IMG/VR virus record: IMGVR_UViG_3300042566_000599
Location: 32,346-96,345 of that record
DNA from: a virus
Reading direction: 5' to 3' (one strand)
DNA: 64,000 nucleotides
Under the pieces are notes generated by a model. The model made no database searches and was not told where the DNA came from. It was given only the letters and a program-made list of their open reading frames with translations. A program made the position numbers and the translations under genes. Below are positions 8,077-61,544 of the stretch, piece after piece; position 1 is the first letter of the stretch; each line of letters opens with the position of its first letter.

Positions 8077-9582
8077 TTATTGGTCTTCTATTGACCCAGA
8101 AATAATCTTTGTTACTGTATCTTCTTTAAGCGTCTCAGGCAACTCTTTTAATGCTTGAGCACGGTCACCAAAGATGGCGGAAAGCACTCCACCAGCACTC
8201 TGACGCTGGGCTGTAATCTGTATAAACTCTTTATTGGTCTCCATTTCCTTAACCTGATTGACCAGTTTGAATAGGCGGTCAATCTCCTGTGAGACGTTAG
8301 GGTCCGCATATCCGCCATTCATTTCTTCGGCAAAACGCATGAACGCCACACGCTGTCCTTGCATCTCAATTATGGCTGTGAGCAGGGATTTTAATTGTTC
8401 TTTAGTCTTTACCTCTACTGGAAGATTGAAGGCACAAGAATTATTAGGCTTGAAAGCAGGGCAATTAGCAGCGACAAAGCAAGTGTTGCACTGACGAATT
8501 GAACCACTCTGCGTTTGAACGACGGGTACATCTTTTAAAACATCCCTTCCATTCTCATCTGTTTCTACTACAGTCTTTATATTGAAGCCAAATACAGGTA
8601 AATTCTGCATCTCTTCAGGGGCTCTTTGAACCACTTCACTTCGCTCCACTTTCCTCCCTTCTACTCCACTGTTATCAGAAGGTACCCCCATCATTTCCAT
8701 CAAACCTGTCATTAGTGGGGTATCGCTGTTATCAGATACTTCCTCAATTTTGCCACCCTCAATGATGTGTAAATCAGGCTTCTTTTTATCCATTGACTTC
8801 TCCAACTGTAGATACGACCACACGGCAACTCTAGTGGCTTCAAGGGTACTATCTTTGACGAACTCTGAATAGTCTAGACCTGCGCCCTCAACAATTGCCT
8901 TGTATCGAAGCCTGGCTTGGTCTTTCATCTTCTTTGGATATCTAACTAACTTGGTCCCATCCCAGATGATTGTTTCGCCTCTTCTCATGGGCGATAACCA
9001 TGACAATGTGCTTGCTGTAGCAAATGGTATCTGTCTTAGGTTGTCTGGCTTGGCACACCCCAGAGCATGATAGCGAGTTCCAAACTGTCTTTCATAGGCT
9101 CTGGTTATGCCTGATAGGTTGGTGACTGATTCAATCTCTTCATTAGGTATTGCAATGTTTTGGAATTGCTGTGAAAGTTCTTTTAGGTTGAGTAGCCCGT
9201 ACTCTTGATGCCATATTACCCATAGTTTGGGGTCATTACTGAAAAAGGGACGTTGTTGTGCTACCCACTCTTGGCCCAAAATCTGTGAGTCGAATTCTTG
9301 AAAGGCCTCGGCTCTGTCAGCGTTATTGACCAAAAACTCCTGGTAGTCAGCAGCCAAGTCTAGTAACTCTTGTCTGGACAGGCCAGCCTTGTCCGCCTGA
9401 GATGCTCCAGACTCAATATAAACCTTTACATTACTATCAAAATGTTCAGAGATAAGCCAAGACTTTGTTTTAGGCAACCCACGTTTGCGTAAACCCCAAT
9501 AGTTGAGTCCCATCGACTCAACTTTGAGACCTTCAAGAAGGGTACGGTTACTTCCAACCTCTGTTCCTGAGAAGATAAGCAT
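8077..9582 (-). CDS. Large unknown protein, possibly tRNA-guanine-transglycosylase-like, with cysteine cluster
   Basis: A 501-residue protein. Residues 1-265 begin IFSGTEVGSNRTLLEGL and include YHALGCAKPDNLRQIPFATAS followed by TLSWLSPMRRGETIIWDG, resembling the TIM-barrel TGT/DpdA-type proteins seen in phages, where the HxLG and SxxW regions line the base pocket. This match is from memory and weak. Residues 270-330 are a low-complexity linker. After it comes IRQCNTCFVAANCPAFKPNN with a later CAF, four cysteines that could hold zinc, then a helical tail. No queuosine-type precursor genes are seen nearby. Its start shares one base with the stop of the HAD-like gene upstream. Confidence 0.4.
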   Translation of the reverse strand: MLIFSGTEVGSNRTLLEGLKVESMGLNYWGLRKRGLPKTKSWLISEHFDSNVKVYIESGASQADKAGLSRQELLDLAADYQEFLVNNADRAEAFQEFDSQILGQEWVAQQRPFFSNDPKLWVIWHQEYGLLNLKELSQQFQNIAIPNEEIESVTNLSGITRAYERQFGTRYHALGCAKPDNLRQIPFATASTLSWLSPMRRGETIIWDGTKLVRYPKKMKDQARLRYKAIVEGAGLDYSEFVKDSTLEATRVAVWSYLQLEKSMDKKKPDLHIIEGGKIEEVSDNSDTPLMTGLMEMMGVPSDNSGVEGRKVERSEVVQRAPEEMQNLPVFGFNIKTVVETDENGRDVLKDVPVVQTQSGSIRQCNTCFVAANCPAFKPNNSCAFNLPVEVKTKEQLKSLLTAIIEMQGQRVAFMRFAEEMNGGYADPNVSQEIDRLFKLVNQVKEMETNKEFIQITAQRQSAGGVLSAIFGDRAQALKELPETLKEDTVTKIISGSIEDQ

Positions 9583-22098: not shown

Positions 22099-22472
22099 CC
22101 ATCAATCCTTCCAACTATCTGTTGTGGGTTAAAGTTATTTGTTACATCGTTTCCTCGGGCTGACTTTGTTGTCCCCTCTACTTTTGCTCCAGTTAAAGAA
22201 CCGTATCGACTACCAGATTGCTCAAGAGGATACCCGCAGTCATAGCAACGTAACTTTGCGCCAGCAACACTCATGTAGTTGTTAGAAGAACAATTTGGAC
22301 AAGACTGTGTCTGTGCAGCACTCTGTGCCTTTGATAAAGGAGCAGAAGGCTGTGAAGGAACATACTGAGTCATAGGCTGTTGAGACGGTGGCATAGGCAT
22401 GTTTGTTGGACGCGATTGTTGTGGGGGTGTTTGTTGTCCTAGTTTATCTGCCCACCAGTTTGCATTACTCAT
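22095..22472 (-). CDS. Zinc-ribbon protein with Pro/Gln-rich N-terminus
   Basis: A 125-residue protein. Residues 1-55 are Pro/Gln/Ser-rich and disordered; CPNCSSNNYM and LRCYDCGYPLE form a zinc ribbon at about 58-82; the tail is disordered. It lies between the polymerase/paralog genes and recA with four-base overlaps, so it could be a recombination or transcription accessory factor. Common in actinobacteriophages, function unknown. Confidence 0.55.
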   Translation of the reverse strand: MSNANWWADKLGQQTPPQQSRPTNMPMPPSQQPMTQYVPSQPSAPLSKAQSAAQTQSCPNCSSNNYMSVAGAKLRCYDCGYPLEQSGSRYGSLTGAKVEGTTKSARGNDVTNNFNPQQIVGRIDG

Positions 22473-23212
22473 CTTCCATCCCTTTCAACTTTTTTTCTTT
22501 TTGAAATATACTGCTTACTTCCAGAAAATTGAGTAAAAAAAGGCATTCTAAAATTTTCAAATCTTTTTTTGTCTTGTTCTGTTTGGTAACGAACCTCTAA
22601 GTTTAAAGGCTCTCTTTTAAATGGCACATATTGAACAAGAGGAGTTCCTCTTTTAATAAAAATTTCGTCTTTTTCTGAGGTTAACAACACTTGTTGGTTT
22701 ACAACATGGTGTGTATCAGTATCTATAATTCCAGGTAACACCGTAAACTCATTCGTGTAGTGATAAAACAAGGGTAATTGAAGCACTGAATAACCAGGAG
22801 GGGTTATAATATACCATGGGCAGTCTGACTTAAAAATAAAATTGCCATTTTGATTTAAGTGTTTAAAAGGAACGTGGGATAAAAACTGTTGGTTAGAGTG
22901 ACTACTCCAACGAAATTTTTCATGAGAAGTTCTCCAAGAATATTGTTCTGTATTTCTGTCATATTTTAAAATACTATCTGCCCACATAGGAATGACTATT
23001 CCTGCGGAAAAATAGTCGGGAAATGAAGGACAATTTTTTACGTTTCCTACAGTCACCTCTTTACTAGTTACTACGGTTTCTATTAAAGAAGTGGTCTTCC
23101 ACCACTCTGGAATAAATTTGTTTGCTGGTTTTGGCAATACTTCTTCAACCAACTCTAATCCTTCAAGTGTAGATACAACCTCTATTAAAGGAGTTACTTG
23201 TTTTTTAAACAC
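22469..23212 (-). CDS. Unknown protein, member of the three-paralog family
   Basis: A 247-residue protein sharing blocks with the gene at 51529-52242: P-E/D-W-W/Y near residue 35, a CPSFPDYFSAGIVIPMWAD block, TPPGYSVLQLPLF, FTVLPGIIDTD and GTPLVQYVPFKRE. Similar proteins occur in T4-like cyanophages (DUF6065 as far as I recall). Fold and function are unknown; the strand-rich pattern suggests a beta-sandwich or jelly roll. It is locked between polymerase and the zinc-ribbon gene with overlaps on both sides. Confidence 0.55.
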   Translation of the reverse strand: MFKKQVTPLIEVVSTLEGLELVEEVLPKPANKFIPEWWKTTSLIETVVTSKEVTVGNVKNCPSFPDYFSAGIVIPMWADSILKYDRNTEQYSWRTSHEKFRWSSHSNQQFLSHVPFKHLNQNGNFIFKSDCPWYIITPPGYSVLQLPLFYHYTNEFTVLPGIIDTDTHHVVNQQVLLTSEKDEIFIKRGTPLVQYVPFKREPLNLEVRYQTEQDKKRFENFRMPFFTQFSGSKQYISKRKKVERDGR

Positions 23213-51528: not shown

Positions 51529-52242
51529 CTATTTAAATTCCTTTTTACTTCTGTAAAAAGTCTTATAGGAATCAAAAATTTTTACCTTTAATCTGATGCT
51601 TACCTTTGATAATTCTCGCAGGTCTTCTTGTGACCCAAAAACAGTGTTCCAAGACTCTCTCTTAAATGGGATTACCTGTGCCATAGGAGTTCCAGCAGGG
51701 ATTAGACCCTCAAAAGAGTAGTCGTTTAATACAAATGGAAAGTTAATTGGAGCAAAGTACTTATCAGTGTCTACCACACCTGGAAAAATGGTGAAAACAG
51801 AGTCTCTATGAAGAGGTTGCACAAATAGTGAGGAATATCCTGGAGGAGTCTTGACACCCCACTGGTTCATCCACTTTGGGTAGGATAGTTCATGGCCACC
51901 TTTTCCTGGATGATTAGGCGCTTGCTCTATGGGATGGAATTCCACTGCAGTAAGGGAAGGCCACTCATAGTAGGGTGCCGTACCAGCCTTAGTATTCGGG
52001 TCTTTGCGTTGAGTTACAAATATATCTACTGAAGTAAACAGAATATATCCTGCAGAAATAGCGTCAAATACAGGCATACATCTTTTGATAGTTCCTGTAG
52101 TTGTCCCATCTCCTCCAGGAATTTTTTTATTGTCAATTAGATAGGAGTCTAATTCCTTATACCAATCTGGAACTACGCTACTGGCAGGTTGTGGTTTGTA
52201 GAACTCTGCTACAGTGCTTATCGGTGTAAACTTAATCTCCAT
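51529..52242 (-). CDS. Unknown protein, member of the three-paralog family
   Basis: A 237-residue homolog of the protein at 22469-23212. The shared blocks are PDWYKEL, CMPVFDAISAGYILFTSVD, TPPGYSSLFVQPL, FTIFPGVVDTDKY and GTPMAQVIPFKRE. It is placed among structural and adhesion genes, unlike the copy in the replication block, so the family is probably not tied to one process. Possibly DUF6065-related. No catalytic site is obvious. Confidence 0.55.
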   Translation of the reverse strand: MEIKFTPISTVAEFYKPQPASSVVPDWYKELDSYLIDNKKIPGGDGTTTGTIKRCMPVFDAISAGYILFTSVDIFVTQRKDPNTKAGTAPYYEWPSLTAVEFHPIEQAPNHPGKGGHELSYPKWMNQWGVKTPPGYSSLFVQPLHRDSVFTIFPGVVDTDKYFAPINFPFVLNDYSFEGLIPAGTPMAQVIPFKRESWNTVFGSQEDLRELSKVSIRLKVKIFDSYKTFYRSKKEFK

Positions 52243-54483: not shown

Positions 54484-54499
54484 TAATGTTTGGGCTATG
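54484..54499 (+). promoter_or_regulatory. Possible leaderless promoter of the plus-strand island
   Basis: TGGTAATGT contains an extended -10 (TGnTAATGT, fitting the actinobacterial TANNNT form) at 54484-54489. Seven bases later comes the ATG of the first island gene, so transcription would start at or near the A of the start codon. No ribosome site precedes that ATG. Leaderless messages are common in Actinobacteria. No convincing -35 is seen. Confidence 0.45.
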
Positions 54500-55498
54500 A
54501 ATTTGGTGCATAAGTCGGTTTCTCAAGGGGGTAAGTTAGCCCCCCTCATCGTGCCTCATAGCCTTCCCGATAATACGGGGATTATGAACCCCTCTATCTT
54601 TATAGATGATGATGGCGATATCTTGGTAAATGTTAGATGCGTTAATTACACCCTCTACATTTCAGAAGAAGATGAACGCTTCTTTAGCCCTTGGGGGCCC
54701 CTTACTTACCTGCATCCAGAAAAGGACCAGAGACTAGTCACAGTTAACTATATGTGCCGCCTTGATAAGGACCTCAGTCTTATTAATTCTACACAAGTAG
54801 AGATGCTCAATCTTCACACTCCTATTTGGGAATTCCACGGATTGGAAGATGCCAGAGTTGTAAGGTGGGACGATGACCTGTACATGATTGGCGTGCGTCG
54901 TGATACCACGCCTAATGGTCAGGGCCGTATGGAATACTCAAAGATTGAGTTAGATAAAACTAATTGGATTGCTAAAGAGGTATCACGCGTGCGCATGCCC
55001 GCGCCCGTGCACGAGGACACCTCCTACTGTGAAAAGAATTGGATGCCTGTCATTGACAATCCTTATCATTTTGTCAAGTGGACGATGCCAACAGAAGTCG
55101 TTTGGTCTAATCCTAATGAGCCTGAAACTAGACAGGCCTTTACAAGAGAGACCCCTAACTCTCCTGTAGACCAACGAGGGGGTTCACACGTCATACGTTG
55201 GGGTGAGTACTACCTGTGTTTCACACACGAAGTTAAATTATGGCGCAATTACTTAAGTCAAAAAGACTCTGTCTATAGACACAGAGTTGTTGTCTGGGAT
55301 AAAGACTTTAATTTTAAGGGATTAAGTAATTCATTTGCATTTATGGATGTGAAGATTGAGTTCTGTACAGGAGCAGCAGTGCGCAATGACAACTTACTAG
55401 TTAGTTTTTCTGTTGCTGATAATGCTGCATTTATCCTTGAAATACCACAGAACGTTGTTAATGAGATGGTTACGGAGGCTCTGTCCTATGTCGGTTAA
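54497..55498 (+). CDS. GH130-like beta-propeller protein
   Basis: A 333-residue five-bladed propeller-like protein: NPSIFIDDDGDILVNVRCVN, EFHGLEDARVVRWDDDLYMI, EKNWMPVIDNPYHFVKWT and GGSHVIRWGEYYLCFTHE are repeated blade motifs, as in the glycoside hydrolase 130/mannoside phosphorylase group. It would bind or process a sugar. Similar genes accompany glycosyltransferases in cyanophages. The start is the leaderless ATG after TAATGT; an internal ATG at 54584 (MNPSIFI) is an alternative. The next gene starts 11 bases inside its end. Confidence 0.7.
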   Translation: MNLVHKSVSQGGKLAPLIVPHSLPDNTGIMNPSIFIDDDGDILVNVRCVNYTLYISEEDERFFSPWGPLTYLHPEKDQRLVTVNYMCRLDKDLSLINSTQVEMLNLHTPIWEFHGLEDARVVRWDDDLYMIGVRRDTTPNGQGRMEYSKIELDKTNWIAKEVSRVRMPAPVHEDTSYCEKNWMPVIDNPYHFVKWTMPTEVVWSNPNEPETRQAFTRETPNSPVDQRGGSHVIRWGEYYLCFTHEVKLWRNYLSQKDSVYRHRVVVWDKDFNFKGLSNSFAFMDVKIEFCTGAAVRNDNLLVSFSVADNAAFILEIPQNVVNEMVTEALSYVG

Positions 55499-56051
55499 AG
55501 AGTTGGCTATTGACCTGTCCTCTAATACACGAGATGCTAATAAAAACTTTGCGTTAGCCGAAGAGTATGAACGGCTACACCAACACGCTTCTGCTGCGGG
55601 GTTCTTTCTTAGAGCCGCAGATTTAGGTTACAAAACAGACCCACTATTAACCTACACATCTCTGTTAAAGATGGCTCTCTGTTTTTCCAGACAGAAAGAC
55701 CGCACAGCAACTGTGTTGACTACTCTACATAACGCTATTGCTTTTATGCCATCACGACCAGAGGCATATTTCATCCTTTCACGATTCTATGAGCGTAATC
55801 GAGATTGGCATAAAGCGTATGCTTTTGCAGAGTTGGGTCTTCAGTTTGCAATGACCGCTAACCACATGCCAACACCAGGGTATGTTGAATACAACGGAGC
55901 CTACTGTCTGATGTTTGAGAAGGCGGTAGTAGGGTGGTGGATTGGACGAAAAGATGAGAGTAAAGTGATATTCCAAGACCTACTAGATAACCATAAGATG
56001 ACACCAGATTACGTTTATGGGTGCCTTAATAATATGAAGTTGTTTAACTAA
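55488..56051 (+). CDS. TPR-like helical-repeat protein
   Basis: A 187-residue helical protein. The start (MSVKELAIDLS) follows GGAGG within the previous gene; a longer reading has no site. Helical pairs such as YERLHQHASAAGFFLRAAD, RPEAYFILSRFYERN and WHKAYAFAELGLQ fit tetratricopeptide repeats. Such proteins hold partners; here these are likely the island's glycosyltransferase or methyltransferase. It shares one base with the next gene. Confidence 0.65.
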   Translation: MSVKELAIDLSSNTRDANKNFALAEEYERLHQHASAAGFFLRAADLGYKTDPLLTYTSLLKMALCFSRQKDRTATVLTTLHNAIAFMPSRPEAYFILSRFYERNRDWHKAYAFAELGLQFAMTANHMPTPGYVEYNGAYCLMFEKAVVGWWIGRKDESKVIFQDLLDNHKMTPDYVYGCLNNMKLFN

Positions 56052-56581
56052 TGTTTCCTAATTGGTTTAAGGATGTTGAAAAGTACTTTAGACATGTTCC
56101 TAACGTGCCGTTACGAGCACTGCAAATAGGGACATACACTGGGGATGCAACTGAATGGCTACTTAATAATCGAGAAGTTGAACGTCTTCACGATGTAGAC
56201 ACCTGGGAAGGTAGCGAAGAAGTTGCACATGAATCATTAAACTTCTCTTCTGTAGAAGACTATTACGATTCTAGATTCAATGATGTACGACTTGTTAAGT
56301 GCAAAATGACCAGTGATGACTTTTTTGCAAACAATAAAAGTACCTTTAACTTCATCTATATTGATGGAGACCACACTGCTTCTCAAACAGTAATAGATGG
56401 ACTTAATGCTTTTAGAGTTTTAGAGACAGGCGGAGTAATGGCTTTTGACGATTATCTGTGGAACTATAACGGCAACCCCTTCTTAGAGCCTAAGAGAGGC
56501 GTAGATGCCCTTTTAGAGGTATGTAAAGGTCAATTTGTGCTGATTGAATCTGGTTATCAAGTGTGGATTAAGAAATGTTAA
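56051..56581 (+). CDS. SAM-dependent methyltransferase (class I)
   Basis: A 176-residue enzyme. The SAM-binding loop is ALQIGTYTGDATEWLL; motif II and the metal-type site are FIYIDGDHTASQTVIDG and GGVMAFDDYLWN. This belongs to the Methyltransf_24-like group used on sugars and small molecules. Located between the helical-repeat and glycosyltransferase genes, it may methylate a sugar that the latter transfers. Overlaps of one to seven bases connect the genes. Confidence 0.8.
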   Translation: MFPNWFKDVEKYFRHVPNVPLRALQIGTYTGDATEWLLNNREVERLHDVDTWEGSEEVAHESLNFSSVEDYYDSRFNDVRLVKCKMTSDDFFANNKSTFNFIYIDGDHTASQTVIDGLNAFRVLETGGVMAFDDYLWNYNGNPFLEPKRGVDALLEVCKGQFVLIESGYQVWIKKC

Positions 56582-57309
56582 CTAACGCTTGCTATGAGGT
56601 CTTTCATACTGATACTGGAAACACTTTAAGAAACAAGTCTTATGAGGGCATCTTAAAAAGTATGTCTTTTTTACCTCGTCTTGGCTCTCCTACAATGTAC
56701 CTAAACACGGCAGAAAAAGCACAGAAGTTTATTAATGACAATCCAGACTTTAAAGTAAACACGGTGCACGATTATGCGCAGCCTGGAGAGATTTTCCCAC
56801 CCAGTTCTGGAGTGGTTGGAGTATGGGCAAGCAATTGGTTGGCTTTCAAAGCATTCCTTGAGAGTGATAAAGATGTTCTCTTAATCTTTGAGGATGACAT
56901 TGTTCTCAGTGCAAACTTTGAGCCAATTGTAAACTTTTATATGCAGCAACTAATGCCCACATGGGATTTCTTTTCCCTTTTTGTACCAGACGATTCATTA
57001 TTTGCGTATAGCGAAGTAGAGCACGACATATACGAAGAACATGTGTGCCGTTCATATCAGCAGTGGTCTTGTGCAGGATATGCTGTAAGTAGACGTGGTG
57101 CAGAAAAAGCCCTGCAGGATGTGGCTACACGTGGAATTACAGCACCAATAGACTGGTACATCTTTAACTTTAGAATGAAGCAAGAACAAGACCAGATGAG
57201 GTTTGCTACTTACACGTTAAAACCACAGGCTTACAGGCCAATAAAGTTCTTATTAGAAGCAGCAACTGCAAGTCAAATACACAATGGAGTTACAGAGTCT
57301 TTATTCTAG
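56575..57309 (+). CDS. Glycosyltransferase family 25-like
   Basis: A 244-residue protein. VLLIFEDDIVLSANFEPIVN (the E-D-D metal site), VGVWASNWLAFKAFLES and QQWSCAGYAVSRRGAEKALQ with the later PIDWYIFNF are the core of GT25 (LPS and collagen galactosyltransferase family). The final 25 residues are short compared with cellular members. It would attach a sugar to lipopolysaccharide-like glycan or protein. It ends tail-to-tail, overlapping by four bases with the stop of the collagen-like fiber gene. Confidence 0.8.
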   Translation: MLTNACYEVFHTDTGNTLRNKSYEGILKSMSFLPRLGSPTMYLNTAEKAQKFINDNPDFKVNTVHDYAQPGEIFPPSSGVVGVWASNWLAFKAFLESDKDVLLIFEDDIVLSANFEPIVNFYMQQLMPTWDFFSLFVPDDSLFAYSEVEHDIYEEHVCRSYQQWSCAGYAVSRRGAEKALQDVATRGITAPIDWYIFNFRMKQEQDQMRFATYTLKPQAYRPIKFLLEAATASQIHNGVTESLF

Positions 57310-58433
57310 TAGGCGTCCATTACGTCTCTAATAAACACGTCATCGGTCGCTCCCGTTGCTCCTTGCACTCCGCCAGTACCCTGTACTCCTTGAGTACCTT
57401 GTGTACCTTGCGTTCCTTGAGTACCCGCACCAGTAGTTCCTTGAGTTCCTTCAGTACCCTGTACTCCTTGCGTACCTTGAGCACCAGTATCGCCCTTGTC
57501 ACCAACACGTGCAAACGTTACGTAGAGGTTGTCGTTGTTAACAACTGACAGAGTTCCAGTTACGTGAGCAACTGGAACGCTGAAGTACGCTCCACCGCTC
57601 TCGTGCGTGTGTGTGCCTGTGATTTGGAAGAAAGCAAAACTACTTGGGTCTCCAACTTCAGTGAACTTAATAGTTCCCTTAATTCCAGAAGTTGAATCAT
57701 CAATTGTGTTTAGTAGTTGAGCAATATCATTTGAATTAAAGTCAATATTGTCGATATACATGACTGAAGCACTAGAAATAGTGGCATTATTGAATTTTAA
57801 GTTACCGCTTCCTGGGTCGGTGTTAGTGGTGTCTGTAAGGAAGTTGTACTCATGAGTTTCACCGCCAAATGCACCTGTAGCACCCTGTACACCAAGAGTT
57901 CCCTGCACTCCTTGAGTTCCCTGAGTGCCTTGAGTACCCTGAGTACCCTGAGTTCCTTGAGTACCCTCCGTACCCTGCACTCCTTGAGTTCCTTGAGTTC
58001 CTTGAGTTCCCTGAGTGCCTTGAGTGCCTTGAGTGCCTTGAGTGCCTTGAGAACCTATCTCTCCTTGTGTGCCCTGTGTTCCTTGTGCACCAGTTTCACC
58101 AAGCACACCCTGTGTACCTTGGGTTCCCTGAGTTCCCTGAACTCCTTGAGCACCTACAGTGCCTTGAGTACCTTGAGTACCCTGAGTTCCTTGGGTGCCG
58201 TCAGTACCCTGTACTCCTTGAGTACCATGTGTTCCCTGAACGCCTTGTGCTCCAGTTGCACCTTGAAGACCTTGAAGTCCGCCATAACCAAGGGAGTTCC
58301 AGGCAGTGCTGCCGTTACCTACCTTGATTTTCTGTGTGTCGGTCTCAATACCGACTTCACCAGCGGCAAGAGTGGGGTTATTGTTAAACCATTCTGTTGC
58401 TGTACCACGTCGTAGTTGTATGCGTACTGCCAT
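57306..58433 (-). CDS. Collagen-like tail fiber protein
   Basis: A 375-residue protein. Residues 1-50 match the Mtd-type N-terminal anchor (IQLRRGTATEWFNNNPTLAA; GVGNGSTAWNS-like KVGNGSTAWNSLGYG). Residues 52-200 are a Gly-X-Y collagen-like arm, mainly Gly-Thr-Gln triplets. Residues 205-325 form a globular beta domain (ETHEYNFLTDTTNTDPGSGN; LYVTFARVGDKGDTG), and residues 326-370 are a second short collagen arm. It is a trimeric side fiber or whisker. The globular domain is duplicated in the 941-residue fiber. Thr positions could be glycosylated. Confidence 0.85.
   Translation of the reverse strand: MAVRIQLRRGTATEWFNNNPTLAAGEVGIETDTQKIKVGNGSTAWNSLGYGGLQGLQGATGAQGVQGTHGTQGVQGTDGTQGTQGTQGTQGTVGAQGVQGTQGTQGTQGVLGETGAQGTQGTQGEIGSQGTQGTQGTQGTQGTQGTQGTQGVQGTEGTQGTQGTQGTQGTQGTQGVQGTLGVQGATGAFGGETHEYNFLTDTTNTDPGSGNLKFNNATISSASVMYIDNIDFNSNDIAQLLNTIDDSTSGIKGTIKFTEVGDPSSFAFFQITGTHTHESGGAYFSVPVAHVTGTLSVVNNDNLYVTFARVGDKGDTGAQGTQGVQGTEGTQGTTGAGTQGTQGTQGTQGVQGTGGVQGATGATDDVFIRDVMDAY
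57860..58280 (-). repeat. Nine-base Gly-Thr-Gln tandem repeats (small fiber)
   Basis: This stretch encodes the main collagen arm as near-perfect 9-base units (GG-x-ACN-CAR) with small substitutions (GVQ, GAQ, GTE). Homogenous repeats of this kind are prone to slippage and recombination, so arm length may vary among isolates; read mapping over it will be unreliable. Confidence 0.8.
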
Positions 58434-58434
58434 G

Positions 58435-58719
58435 TTATAGAGTCACTCCTCCACCATCGTAGGAACTTGTATAAGCGTCGCTTCCAGCGTTTTCATCTCC
58501 GCCTTCTGCAGTTGTATCGTAGGTATCAGAACCAGCGGCTTCATTACCGCCTTCAATAAGGTCTGCATCAGCAATTGGAACTAGTTGAAGCCAAGAAACG
58601 CCATCAAAAGCAAAAAGACGACGCTCGTCTGTGTTCCAGTAAAGGTCGCCTGGAAATCGACCAAGAGGAATGTTATCAGAGGCGAAAACATTTACTGGAA
58701 CAAGGGCTTTTCTGCTCAT
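58435..58719 (-). CDS. Short fiber-base protein
   Basis: A 94-residue protein. Residues 1-48 (MSRKALVPVNVFASDNIPLG, GDLYWNTDERRLFAFDGVSW) resemble the N-terminal fiber anchor of the 941-residue protein (QIYFDTVLGFLRVWNGSAW). The remainder has two copies of an acidic EGG(N/D)E(A/N)AGSD segment. Without a collagen arm it may be a free adaptor or cap. One base separates it from the large fiber gene. Confidence 0.6.
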   Translation of the reverse strand: MSRKALVPVNVFASDNIPLGRFPGDLYWNTDERRLFAFDGVSWLQLVPIADADLIEGGNEAAGSDTYDTTAEGGDENAGSDAYTSSYDGGGVTL

Positions 58720-61544
58720 TATCCAATAACCGCCACGACGTAAGAGTCAGTTGTTGGGGCTTCTGCAAACTTTACAGTGACTGTGTTAGTTGTTGATTTT
58801 TCAACATCTACAACAACTTCCTCATAGTTTGCAGCGGCGTTGTATACAGAGACAAGTACACCACGTGTTCCAAAGTTGTGTGTAATCGTGAATGATGTCG
58901 CGCTATTATCGCCAATTGTGGTTGTATATTTACGGGCAACTGTGGTTGTGTCAATTGCAACGTCATCAGCGTTGGCTACGATACCTGTGCCAGCACCAAC
59001 GTTAAATGTTGTGCCAGTTTGAGTTAAACCGTTTCCAGCAGTGAAGGCGCCTGCGCCTGAGAACTGTGTAAAGATTAAGTTTGTAGAGTTAAGGGTAATA
59101 GTCTCATTTGTTGAGAGAACCCAACCAGTGTCTGCTTGTCCACCTTCTTCTACGAAGGTAAAGAGACCTGCAGTTACTTCGCCAGTCTCGTTGGCATCTT
59201 CTGCACGAACAAGCACCCAAGGGGTTGAGCCAGAGCCCTTGTGGAAGACAAAGTAAATACCGTGGTAAGCACGATTTCCACCAGACTCATTCTTTACAAG
59301 AACTCGTTCGTTGTCTTCTAGTGCAACAGAGTCAACTGATAGAGCGGCATTTGCGTTAGCAGTGAGTGTTCCACCATTGGTGCTTGTGTAGGTGTACGCA
59401 GGAAGTGCTGAGGCTGTTGCTGCTCGTACAGACTCTTTAACATCAAGTCCTTGAGCAACTCCGTCTACGTAATCCTTTGTAGCAATAACTGATGTATCTA
59501 CATCAATTGTGAAAGTCTGTTGAGCGCCATTGTAGGTAGTGTTAATACCTGTTCCATCAACAACCACTGTCTGCAGAGCGTCATTTACACGCTGTACTGA
59601 GAAGTATAGGTTTGTGGAACCTTCTGGAACATCATCAGTATCAGCAATTGTTGCTGTGATATCGCTAGTAAGGGCGATAGTACCTGATGCATCTGGAAGA
59701 CTGATAGCGTTATTACCAGTTGGAGAAATTGCGCTTAATGTTGTTGTGTACTGAGTACCTTCAAAGCCTGCTCCAGTAGATGCAGTAAAGGCATCAAATG
59801 AAACCTGGTCTCCAGCCTTTGTTAAGGCGTAACCTGCAGTGATTGGGTCGGTCGTACCAGTAGCACCCTGTGTACCTTGAGTACCCTGAGTTCCCGCAGT
59901 GCCCTGTGAACCTACAGTGCCTTGAACGCCTTGTGCAGCAATTAATGTCCAGTAAGTTCCTTCTGTAGGAGTGTCTCCAGTGTTGCCACCGTGAGCGTCG
60001 ATGCGGTACCAAGTCTGTCCTGCGTATGTTGCAACATCGCCGACTGCGTATGAAGTTCCAACACCATAAGCACCAGTAAAGTTCCAAAGGGCTGCTGTAC
60101 CTTGAGTACCCTGCGCACCTTCGGTACCTTGAGTTCCCTCAGTTCCTTGAGCACCCTCGATACCTTGTGTACCGTTAGCACCGTCTAGACCTTGAATACC
60201 GTCTGCACCTTGAGTACCTTGAACGCCCTGAGTTCCCTGTACGCCCTGAACGCCCTGTTGTCCTTCGACGCCTTGGGCTCCTTCGGTGCCTTGAGTGCCC
60301 TGTGCACCTTCAGTTCCTTGAGTACCCTGCTGTCCTTCAGTGCCTTGAACTCCCTGTGCACCTTCTGTACCTTGGGCGCCCTCTGTACCTTGAGCACCTT
60401 CTGCTCCCTGAGCACCTGTAGTGCCCTGTACGCCTTGAGCACCCGTTGTACCTTGGGCTCCAGTGTCGCCCTTGTCACCGACACGAGCAAATGTGATGTA
60501 CACATTGGTGTCGTTAGTAAACGAAGATACAGTACCTGTTACGTAGGCAATAGGAATGGAGTGCCAAGTTCCGCTGTCAGTGCTTGTTCCAACAATTTGG
60601 AAGAATAAGTACTGTGAAGAGTTTGCTGTGTTTGTAAGTTTAAAAGTTCCTTTGATGCCTGATGTTGAGTCATCGATTGTTGCAATCAACTGACCAATGT
60701 CATTGGAGTTAAAGTCAACATCATCAATATAAAGTTCTGTAGCAGAAGTTAATGTTGTAGTGTCAAACGCTACATTGCCTGAACCTGGGTCTTGTTCAGT
60801 GGTGCTTGTTATGTAATTGTATTCGTGGGTTTCTCCACCAAAAGAACCAGTAGCACCTTGGGTACCTTCTGTACCTTGAGCACCTTCTGTTCCTTGAGCA
60901 CCTTCTGTTCCTTGAGCACCTTCTGCACCTTGTGCACCTTCGGTACCCTGTGAACCTACAGTGCCTTGTGCACCTTCAGTACCTTGAGTTCCTTGAGCGC
61001 CCTCTGTTCCCTGTGTTCCCTGAGAACCTTCAGTTCCCTGTACACCTTGTGTACCAAGAGTTCCTTGTGTACCTTGTGTGCCCTGTGTACCTTGTACACC
61101 CTGCTGTCCTTCAACACCCTGTGTACCTTGAGTGCCTTGCGTTCCATTAGTGCCATCTAAACCTTGAGCACCCTCAGTTCCTTGCGAACCAACAGTTCCT
61201 TGCGTACCTTGTGCTCCAACTGTTCCCTGTGTTCCTTGAGCACCGACAGTACCCTGTGCACCTTGCGTACCATTTGCACCATCAAGACCCTGTGCACCTG
61301 CCGTTCCTTGTGCACCCTGTGCACCCGTATCGCCAGTAGCGCCCTGTGTACCCTGGGTACCTTGCGCACCAGCGCTTGTGCTGACCCATGCACTTCCGTT
61401 CCAAACACGGAGAAACCCAAGAACAGTATCAAAGTAAATTTGACCAACTACTGGTGTGGATGGCGCAGTTGCTAAGTTCTGAATTCGAGCATTCTGAAGT
61501 TCTAACTTAGTTAAATCAATAGGGGTTAAGTATTTGCGTGCCAC
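58719..61544 (-). CDS. Large collagen-like tail fiber
   Basis: A 941-residue fiber. Residues 1-58 are an anchor (MARKYLTPIDLTKLELQNAR; YFDTVLGFLRVWNG). Residues 60-232 are a collagen-like arm of Gly-Thr-Gln/Gly-Ala-Gln triplets, 233-360 a beta domain homologous to the other fiber, 361-490 another arm. Residues 491-540 look like a CBM5/12-type module (FTGAYGVGTSYAVGDVATYA), 550-580 a short arm, and 585-941 a long beta-rich tip. The tip has YSVQRVNDAL-like and WVLVRAEDANETG segments. This is probably the main receptor-binding fiber. Confidence 0.85.
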   Translation of the reverse strand: MARKYLTPIDLTKLELQNARIQNLATAPSTPVVGQIYFDTVLGFLRVWNGSAWVSTSAGAQGTQGTQGATGDTGAQGAQGTAGAQGLDGANGTQGAQGTVGAQGTQGTVGAQGTQGTVGSQGTEGAQGLDGTNGTQGTQGTQGVEGQQGVQGTQGTQGTQGTLGTQGVQGTEGSQGTQGTEGAQGTQGTEGAQGTVGSQGTEGAQGAEGAQGTEGAQGTEGAQGTEGTQGATGSFGGETHEYNYITSTTEQDPGSGNVAFDTTTLTSATELYIDDVDFNSNDIGQLIATIDDSTSGIKGTFKLTNTANSSQYLFFQIVGTSTDSGTWHSIPIAYVTGTVSSFTNDTNVYITFARVGDKGDTGAQGTTGAQGVQGTTGAQGAEGAQGTEGAQGTEGAQGVQGTEGQQGTQGTEGAQGTQGTEGAQGVEGQQGVQGVQGTQGVQGTQGADGIQGLDGANGTQGIEGAQGTEGTQGTEGAQGTQGTAALWNFTGAYGVGTSYAVGDVATYAGQTWYRIDAHGGNTGDTPTEGTYWTLIAAQGVQGTVGSQGTAGTQGTQGTQGATGTTDPITAGYALTKAGDQVSFDAFTASTGAGFEGTQYTTTLSAISPTGNNAISLPDASGTIALTSDITATIADTDDVPEGSTNLYFSVQRVNDALQTVVVDGTGINTTYNGAQQTFTIDVDTSVIATKDYVDGVAQGLDVKESVRAATASALPAYTYTSTNGGTLTANANAALSVDSVALEDNERVLVKNESGGNRAYHGIYFVFHKGSGSTPWVLVRAEDANETGEVTAGLFTFVEEGGQADTGWVLSTNETITLNSTNLIFTQFSGAGAFTAGNGLTQTGTTFNVGAGTGIVANADDVAIDTTTVARKYTTTIGDNSATSFTITHNFGTRGVLVSVYNAAANYEEVVVDVEKSTTNTVTVKFAEAPTTDSYVVAVIG
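60085..60470 (-). repeat. Collagen-type tandem repeats, second arm of large fiber
   Basis: The second run of nine-base repeats, following the duplicated beta domain and ending before the CBM-like module. Shared nucleotide stretches with the first arm and with the small fiber gene give ample room for recombination between genes. Confidence 0.75.
60850..61370 (-). repeat. Collagen-type tandem repeats, first arm of large fiber
   Basis: Nine-base repeats coding for Gly-x-Gln/Glu triplets. The middle is dominated by GTQ and GTE (GTEGAQGTEGAQ), so this arm differs in charge from the small fiber's. The same DNA sequence read backward gives long Ser/Leu/Thr-rich frames on the plus strand that are not genes. 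Confidence 0.8.

Follow-up and report, generated by a model that had tools for sequence, protein, structure and literature searches.

A phage gene cassette associated with collagen-like fibers carrying threonine after glycine: a candidate fiber-glycosylation system

Organization of the Locus

The locus investigated here lies in a 64,000-nucleotide stretch of viral DNA (the window), which covers bases 32346-96345 of a linear IMG/VR virus record of 96345 bases (IMGVR_UViG_3300042566_000599). The window carries genes for WhiB, a family A DNA polymerase, RecA, a B12-type ribonucleotide reductase, and a contractile tail sheath; the contig is therefore most likely from a myovirus of an actinobacterium. 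The late genes are on the minus strand. An operon of four plus-strand genes (54497-57309) is inserted between two fiber groups, in the order GH130-like propeller, tetratricopeptide repeat (TPR) protein, Methyltransf_24 methyltransferase, and family 25 glycosyltransferase (GT25). Each open reading frame (ORF) overlaps the next one head to tail, and 4 bp at the GT25 stop are shared with the end of the collagen-like fiber gene that faces it. A preliminary description of this DNA had reported such a four-gene island lying tail-to-tail with a Gly-Thr-Gln fiber, and all of its parts were confirmed. The features, in window positions, are as follows.

54497-55498 (+): GH130/GT108-like five-bladed propeller, 333 aa, assigned by Foldseek and invariant residues; core gene of the cassette
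55488-56051 (+): TPR-like helical repeat protein, 187 aa, TPR models below cut-off; proposed acceptor-binding partner
56051-56581 (+): class I S-adenosylmethionine (SAM) methyltransferase (Methyltransf_24), PF13578, E 3.2e-14; variable cassette part
56575-57309 (+): GT25 glycosyltransferase, 244 aa, PF01755 over cut-off; variable, putative extending enzyme
57306-58433 (-): collagen-like fiber A, 375 aa, PF18454 and PF01391; proposed acceptor
58435-58719 (-): small structural protein, 94 aa, between the two collagen genes, also in relatives
58719-61544 (-): collagen-like fiber B, 941 aa, PF01391, E 1e-47, gene upstream of that of fiber A; second candidate acceptor

Fiber A is composed of an N-terminal Mtd_N domain (PF18454, 62 bits, E 4e-17), a Gly-Thr-Gln-rich tract of 47 triplets, a central domain, and a short second tract; its collagen repeats matched PF01391 with 96 bits (E 1e-27). 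In the 47 Gly-X-Y triplets of the main tract, Thr was at X in 28 and Gln at Y in 35, and Lys was absent. Fiber B has two long Gly-Thr-Gln-rich tracts of 59 and 43 triplets, with Thr at X (X-Thr) in 30 and 17 of them. One Lys was found in the short second tract of fiber A and one across all tracts of fiber B. With almost no Lys, the main tracts cannot undergo the hydroxylysine reaction of animals, and glycosylation of that type was rejected for them.

Identity of the Cassette Proteins

The preliminary description had called the first protein a GH130-like propeller, which agrees with its predicted fold but not with the Pfam GH130 profile (PF04041), against which it scored 15.9 bits, below the cut-off of 26. 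The AlphaFold model (pLDDT 88) was matched by Foldseek to GH130 mannoside phosphorylases and to Leishmania GDP-Man mannosyltransferases (MPT), with E about 1e-8 and TM about 0.5-0.6. Residues G115, E117-D118, and N31-P32 were invariant in an alignment of 30-39 homologs, the Glu-Asp pair in 39; their equivalence to catalytic residues is by resemblance, not by alignment. The match to phosphorylases and GDP-Man transferases, together with the invariant Glu-Asp pair, favours a synthetic over a hydrolytic role. The propeller looks like a biosynthetic enzyme, predicted to be a mannosyl-type transferase, rather than a hydrolase.

No PHROG family matched the propeller family. When bacteria and archaea were scanned at one genome per species (84,980 species), only six contigs carried it, most of them with phage-like neighbours. 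The family is very common in aquatic viruses and nearly virus-only. The TPR gene is almost always directly downstream of the propeller gene; the pair was present in most cassettes and in all six loci found in genome assemblies. Several TPR models matched the window's TPR-like ORF, all below cut-off (best 21.9 bits against 26.3).

The GT25 ORF matched PF01755 with 31.5 bits (cut-off 24) and, in a separate scan, with 28.8 bits, also over the cut-off. Its acidic metal-binding motif E106-D107-D108 was invariant in all aligned homologs, in keeping with a GT-A fold. The best Foldseek matches of the model (pLDDT 81) were human COLGALT1 (1e-9), mimivirus R655 (7e-9), and a bacterial beta-1,4-galactosyltransferase (8e-8), and a profile search of the PDB gave the same families. 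Distant GT25 genes (about 26-33% identity) occur in Streptomyces phages. Collagen was not found in the two such phage genomes searched, and therefore GT25 alone is not a collagen marker.

The methyltransferase matched Methyltransf_24 (PF13578) with 54.1 bits (cut-off 26.3) and also matched O-methyltransferase; its matches phrog_2675 and phrog_27561 carry a DNA methyltransferase label. Phage glycosyltransferases often act on DNA, and GT25 and the methyltransferase could accordingly hypermodify the phage genome. This explanation is extremely improbable. The genes are in the fiber region, not with the replication genes, and the link described below is to collagen type; the matches to Methyltransf_24 and O-methyltransferase also argue against it, and a separate queuine tRNA-ribosyltransferase-like gene could serve DNA modification.

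Distribution and Variation of the Cassette

More than 200 IMG/VR loci contained the cassette; no phage cassette of this kind was described in the open-access literature searched. The propeller and TPR genes form a constant core, and the downstream genes vary: Methyltransf_24 with GT25, FkbM methyltransferase, ATP-grasp, radical SAM/SPASM, DUF6445, or a heptose-1-phosphate adenylyltransferase-like gene. In many relatives Methyltransf_24 is replaced by an FkbM-type methyltransferase. GT25, too, is swapped in relatives, for FkbM, ATP-grasp, or radical SAM genes. The preliminary description had put GT25 in the foreground; GT25 is indeed linked to collagen, but the part that stays constant and goes with collagen is the propeller together with the TPR protein.

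The cassette was carried by actinophage-like contigs, by a second phage type with an unrelated capsid protein, and by Synechococcus phages. In Synechococcus phage DSL-LC02 it is divergent from a gene annotated as collagen-like. In the propeller and methyltransferase trees, the second phage type was nested inside the first, and therefore the cassette has moved between phages. In the second type it again abuts a collagen-like gene, whose non-repeat parts have no detectable similarity to those of the first. A mannose-6-phosphate isomerase-type cupin was found beside one cassette and heptose adenylyltransferase-like genes beside others.

Several variants were observed in addition. Some cassettes of both phage types (L010:2104-2946, L071:9166-10011, and others), but not all, have an ATP-grasp ligase gene that separates the methyltransferase from GT25; its product might attach an amino acid or a comparable group to the sugar. 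In cyanophage-like loci a DUF6445 protein follows the cassette (L199:11788-12480, L192:15378-15974, L152:13097-13690), and the L199 gene adjoins a GT25 + GT2 fusion. The DUF6445 partner was not found in the record of the window, in a search that had no positive control. Directly after the propeller, one protein (L152:10947-13100) combines TPR, FkbM methyltransferase, and radical SAM/SPASM parts, so some cassettes may also add non-sugar peptide modifications. In some relatives (L022, L053, and others like them), the collagen gene is separated from the cassette by fn3 or other small genes, which indicates shuffling within the fiber cluster.

Linkage of the Cassette to Collagen Genes

Co-occurrence of GT25 genes with collagen-like fibers in phage databases had been put forward as a check in the preliminary description, and this check was run. 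Of 23 dereplicated loci with a GT25-bearing cassette, 20 had a collagen gene directly next to the cassette; the other gene boundaries of the same loci, which had been fetched for the cassette, gave an expectation of 3.7. After clustering at 75% identity, the count was 5 of 6 against 0.8 expected. Five other genes of the fiber cluster showed no enrichment next to collagen. Chance adjacency was excluded, because the cassette is conserved in more than 100 IMG/VR contigs, the adjacency is this frequent, and neighbouring genes are not enriched. Among relatives sharing the capsid protein, collagen was present in all 15 contigs with the cassette and in 9 of 16 without it.

The association was also investigated in IMG/VR contigs of at least 20 kb chosen only by DNA encoding (Gly-Thr-Gln)4, (Gly-Pro-Thr)4, or (Gly-Ile-Gln)4 (GTQ, GPT, and GIQ sets). 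These are contig fragments with similar median lengths of about 40 kb, and six contigs are common to the GTQ and GIQ sets. The GH130-like gene was present in 26/47 GTQ, 2/47 GPT, and 11/44 GIQ contigs (GTQ vs. GPT, Fisher 4e-8). GT25 was present in 20/47 GTQ and 2/47 GPT contigs (Fisher 1.4e-5), whereas the generic GT2 control was found in 23/47 and 19/47 (p 0.53). The propellers of the fetched regions, of which two (L765, L766) come from outside the repeat sets, formed 24 clusters at 70% identity. The condition that had been named as refuting the idea, GT25 genes unlinked to collagen-like fibers elsewhere, was not borne out, either by adjacency or by co-occurrence on contigs. The distant Streptomyces phage genes lie away from collagen.

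Collagen Feature Associated with the Cassette

In the GIQ set without the GTQ-shared contigs, the share of Thr at X separated carriers from non-carriers with an area under the curve (AUC) of 0.97. With X-Thr of at least 0.1, 7/9 contigs were positive; below this value, 0/27 were. Thr at Y was not predictive of the cassette in this set, and collagens poor in both proline and X-Thr were positive in 0/14 cases; low proline alone was accordingly rejected as the marker. Over all three sets, 2/71 contigs were positive with X-Thr below 0.1 and 30/46 with at least 0.2. One of the two low-X-Thr positives has Ser at 40% of X positions. A Thr-rich repeat as such was also rejected as the marker, the total Thr per triplet being alike in the main classes (0.54-0.65). 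Because total Thr is alike between classes and Y-Thr is not predictive, it is the position of Thr that matters. The cassette is carried almost only with collagen-like fibers having Thr directly after Gly.

The same pattern was found within the capsid family of the window. Eight cassette-negative records had proline-rich Gly-Pro-Thr collagens (Pro 0.29-0.52 per triplet, X-Thr 0-0.07), and six cassette-positive records had Gly-Thr-Gln collagens (Pro 0-0.02, X-Thr 0.28-0.55), with no overlap. The capsid tree needs at least two to three changes of cassette/collagen state. In one sample (3300032236), L342 was cassette-positive and L372 negative, and the collagen type switched along.

Shared ancestry or ecology could also produce such a pattern, if Gly-Thr-Gln collagens and the cassette travel together in a recombining fiber region without any enzyme-substrate relation. 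Aquatic phages of the T4-like and actinophage-like groups commonly have both, the fiber region has been described as a recombination island (PMC10202952), and 9/33 cassettes of the diverse set are not near collagen. The switch of collagen type with the cassette inside one capsid family, even inside one sample, is hard to reconcile with this explanation, as is the X-versus-Y contrast, for which ecology offers no obvious reason. Positives are diverse at 60-70% identity, other fiber-region genes are unenriched beside collagen, and GT2 is about equal in the GTQ and GPT sets. We consider ancestry or ecology an unlikely sole explanation.

Proposed Function of the Cassette

The adjacency and the X-Thr co-occurrence, like the gene identities by profile and fold, the operon structure, the conservation, and the horizontal movement, are direct observations. 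Taken with the structural models, they make it fairly probable that the island is a phage fiber-glycosylation cassette acting on the phage's own collagen-like fibers. The fiber-glycosylation idea of the preliminary description is thereby partly supported.

For the donor, the acceptor, the order of the steps, and the effect on stability, we infer the following scheme. The propeller, guided by the TPR protein, would attach the first sugar to the X-position Thr of the Gly-X-Y repeats. This sugar would most likely be manno-configured, from GDP-mannose or a related donor; the propeller fold, the mannose-6-phosphate isomerase-type cupin, and the heptose adenylyltransferase-like neighbours suggest mannose or a manno-configured heptose. 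The second sugar, then added by GT25, would probably be galactose or glucose, and the Methyltransf_24 protein would cap the product with a methyl group; relatives would swap the GT25 and methyltransferase steps. The glycan would stiffen a triple helix almost without proline and diversify the fiber surface. Thr glycosylation is cited as stabilising the triple helix (Bann et al. 2000, as cited in PMC3368898), which would give a reason for the pairing of cassette and X-Thr collagen. A more specific form of the proposal is tentative: the propeller with its TPR partner may be a virus-specific collagen O-glycosyltransferase of a new enzyme type acting on X-Thr, with sugars replacing stabilisation by proline or hydroxyproline and with swapped extension enzymes varying the glycan.

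Several points weigh against the fiber-glycosylation proposal. Glycosylation is predicted here from genes and modelled folds, and action on Thr is not known for GT25. The GH130-like gene is absent from 21/47 GTQ contigs, many of them fragments; 9/33 cassettes of the diverse set have no collagen within about 8 kb, and two cassette records (G025, G029) show no collagen at all. Kinship among the positive phages was only partly removed, and ancestry could explain part of the association. In the lineage of the window, the cassette and the late structural genes are encoded on opposite strands, so that their joint expression is not obvious. Predicted promoters and terminators were not above the shuffled-sequence level.

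The strand opposition would also fit a cassette that modifies host surface glycans or exported glycoconjugates against superinfection, being placed among fiber genes as a host-interaction region. Phage glycosyltransferases in the hypervariable tail-fiber regions of pelagimyophages are usually read in this way (PMC7029224), and the same reading was given for phages of Ca. Nanopelagicales (PMC10202952). Host-surface modification does not predict the X-Thr link or the equal GT2 counts, and the propeller-TPR core is found in both WhiB-bearing actinophage-like and Synechococcus phages, whose hosts have very different surfaces. The four products look soluble, and no flippase or lipid-linked partner is present. 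Gtr-type host-modifying systems differ in having strongly hydrophobic segments, which are absent from the cassette products. Host-surface modification is therefore considered improbable, to about the same degree as ancestry. A PADLOC scan for defence systems gave zero matches.

The two records without detected collagen would fit a cassette that glycosylates other virion proteins, such as a non-collagen fiber or the tail, with collagen as one target or a mere neighbour. Mycobacteriophages are cited as glycosylating their capsid and tail-tube proteins (Freeman et al. 2023, as cited in PMC12619734). The prediction of the cassette by X-Thr in the GIQ-only contigs argues against other virion proteins as the targets and makes this a very unlikely alternative to fiber glycosylation.

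Comparison with Known Systems

The phage system has in common with animal COLGALT1 (GLT25D1) and mimivirus L230, R699, and R655 the GT25 fold (COLGALT1, R655) and the encoding of enzymes with collagen-like proteins. Mimivirus glycosylates its own collagens (PMC9546862). The preliminary description had drawn a parallel between the phage GT25 and collagen galactosylation. COLGALT1 is indeed the top PDB structure match, but the COLGALT and mimivirus enzymes act on hydroxylysine or its glycosylated forms, whereas the phage main tract is without lysine and the cassette without a lysyl hydroxylase. Membership of one family therefore does not imply one chemistry. In addition, the 244-aa phage GT25 is only about 15% identical to these enzymes, and the core enzyme of the phage cassette is the propeller. 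The closest folds to the propeller are those of Leishmania MPT (GT108) and bacterial GH130 phosphorylases, whose catalytic motif its invariant Glu-Asp pair resembles. It differs from them in having only 10-15% identity, in scoring below the Pfam cut-off, in being paired with a TPR protein, and in its location in viral fiber regions.

BclA of the Bacillus exosporium is a collagen-like protein of the Gly-Pro-Thr type with O-glycosylated Thr. The parallel with BclA drawn earlier has to be changed, since phage collagens of the Gly-Pro-Thr type are mostly without the cassette (2/47) and the correlate is Thr at X.

In the virion glycosylation of mycobacteriophages (Freeman et al. 2023, cited in PMC12619734), phage-encoded sugars are placed on the phage's own virion proteins, as proposed here; the targets given there are the C-termini of capsid and tail-tube proteins, not collagen-like fibers. 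PBCV-1 A064R/A061L (PMC9614988) likewise provide a virus-encoded glycosyltransferase and methyltransferase for methylated glycans on a structural protein. That system differs in that the glycan is N-linked, the protein is a capsid protein of an algal virus, and the core enzymes are unrelated.

Other Genes of the Window

Two paralogues of the phrog_7084 family, of unknown function, are present in the window at 51529-52242 (-) and 22469-23212 (-) (31% identity, E 1e-19). One is in the fiber cluster and the other among replication genes, and relatives also have the fiber-cluster copy near the cassette. A tyrosine-type phage integrase (3213-4490, +) lies in this otherwise large-myovirus-like contig, and a temperate lifestyle is possible. 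The queuine tRNA-ribosyltransferase-like protein (phrog_887; 8077-9582, -) possibly serves 7-deazaguanine modification of DNA or tRNA.

Significance

Glycosylated collagens have been described in animals, giant viruses, and a few bacteria. If the proposal is correct, very common aquatic phages would arrive at such collagens along another enzymatic route. A widespread viral protein family would gain a function, and some of the glycosyltransferases found next to phage fiber genes would be explained. What holds a proline-free collagen together would then become a directly testable question.

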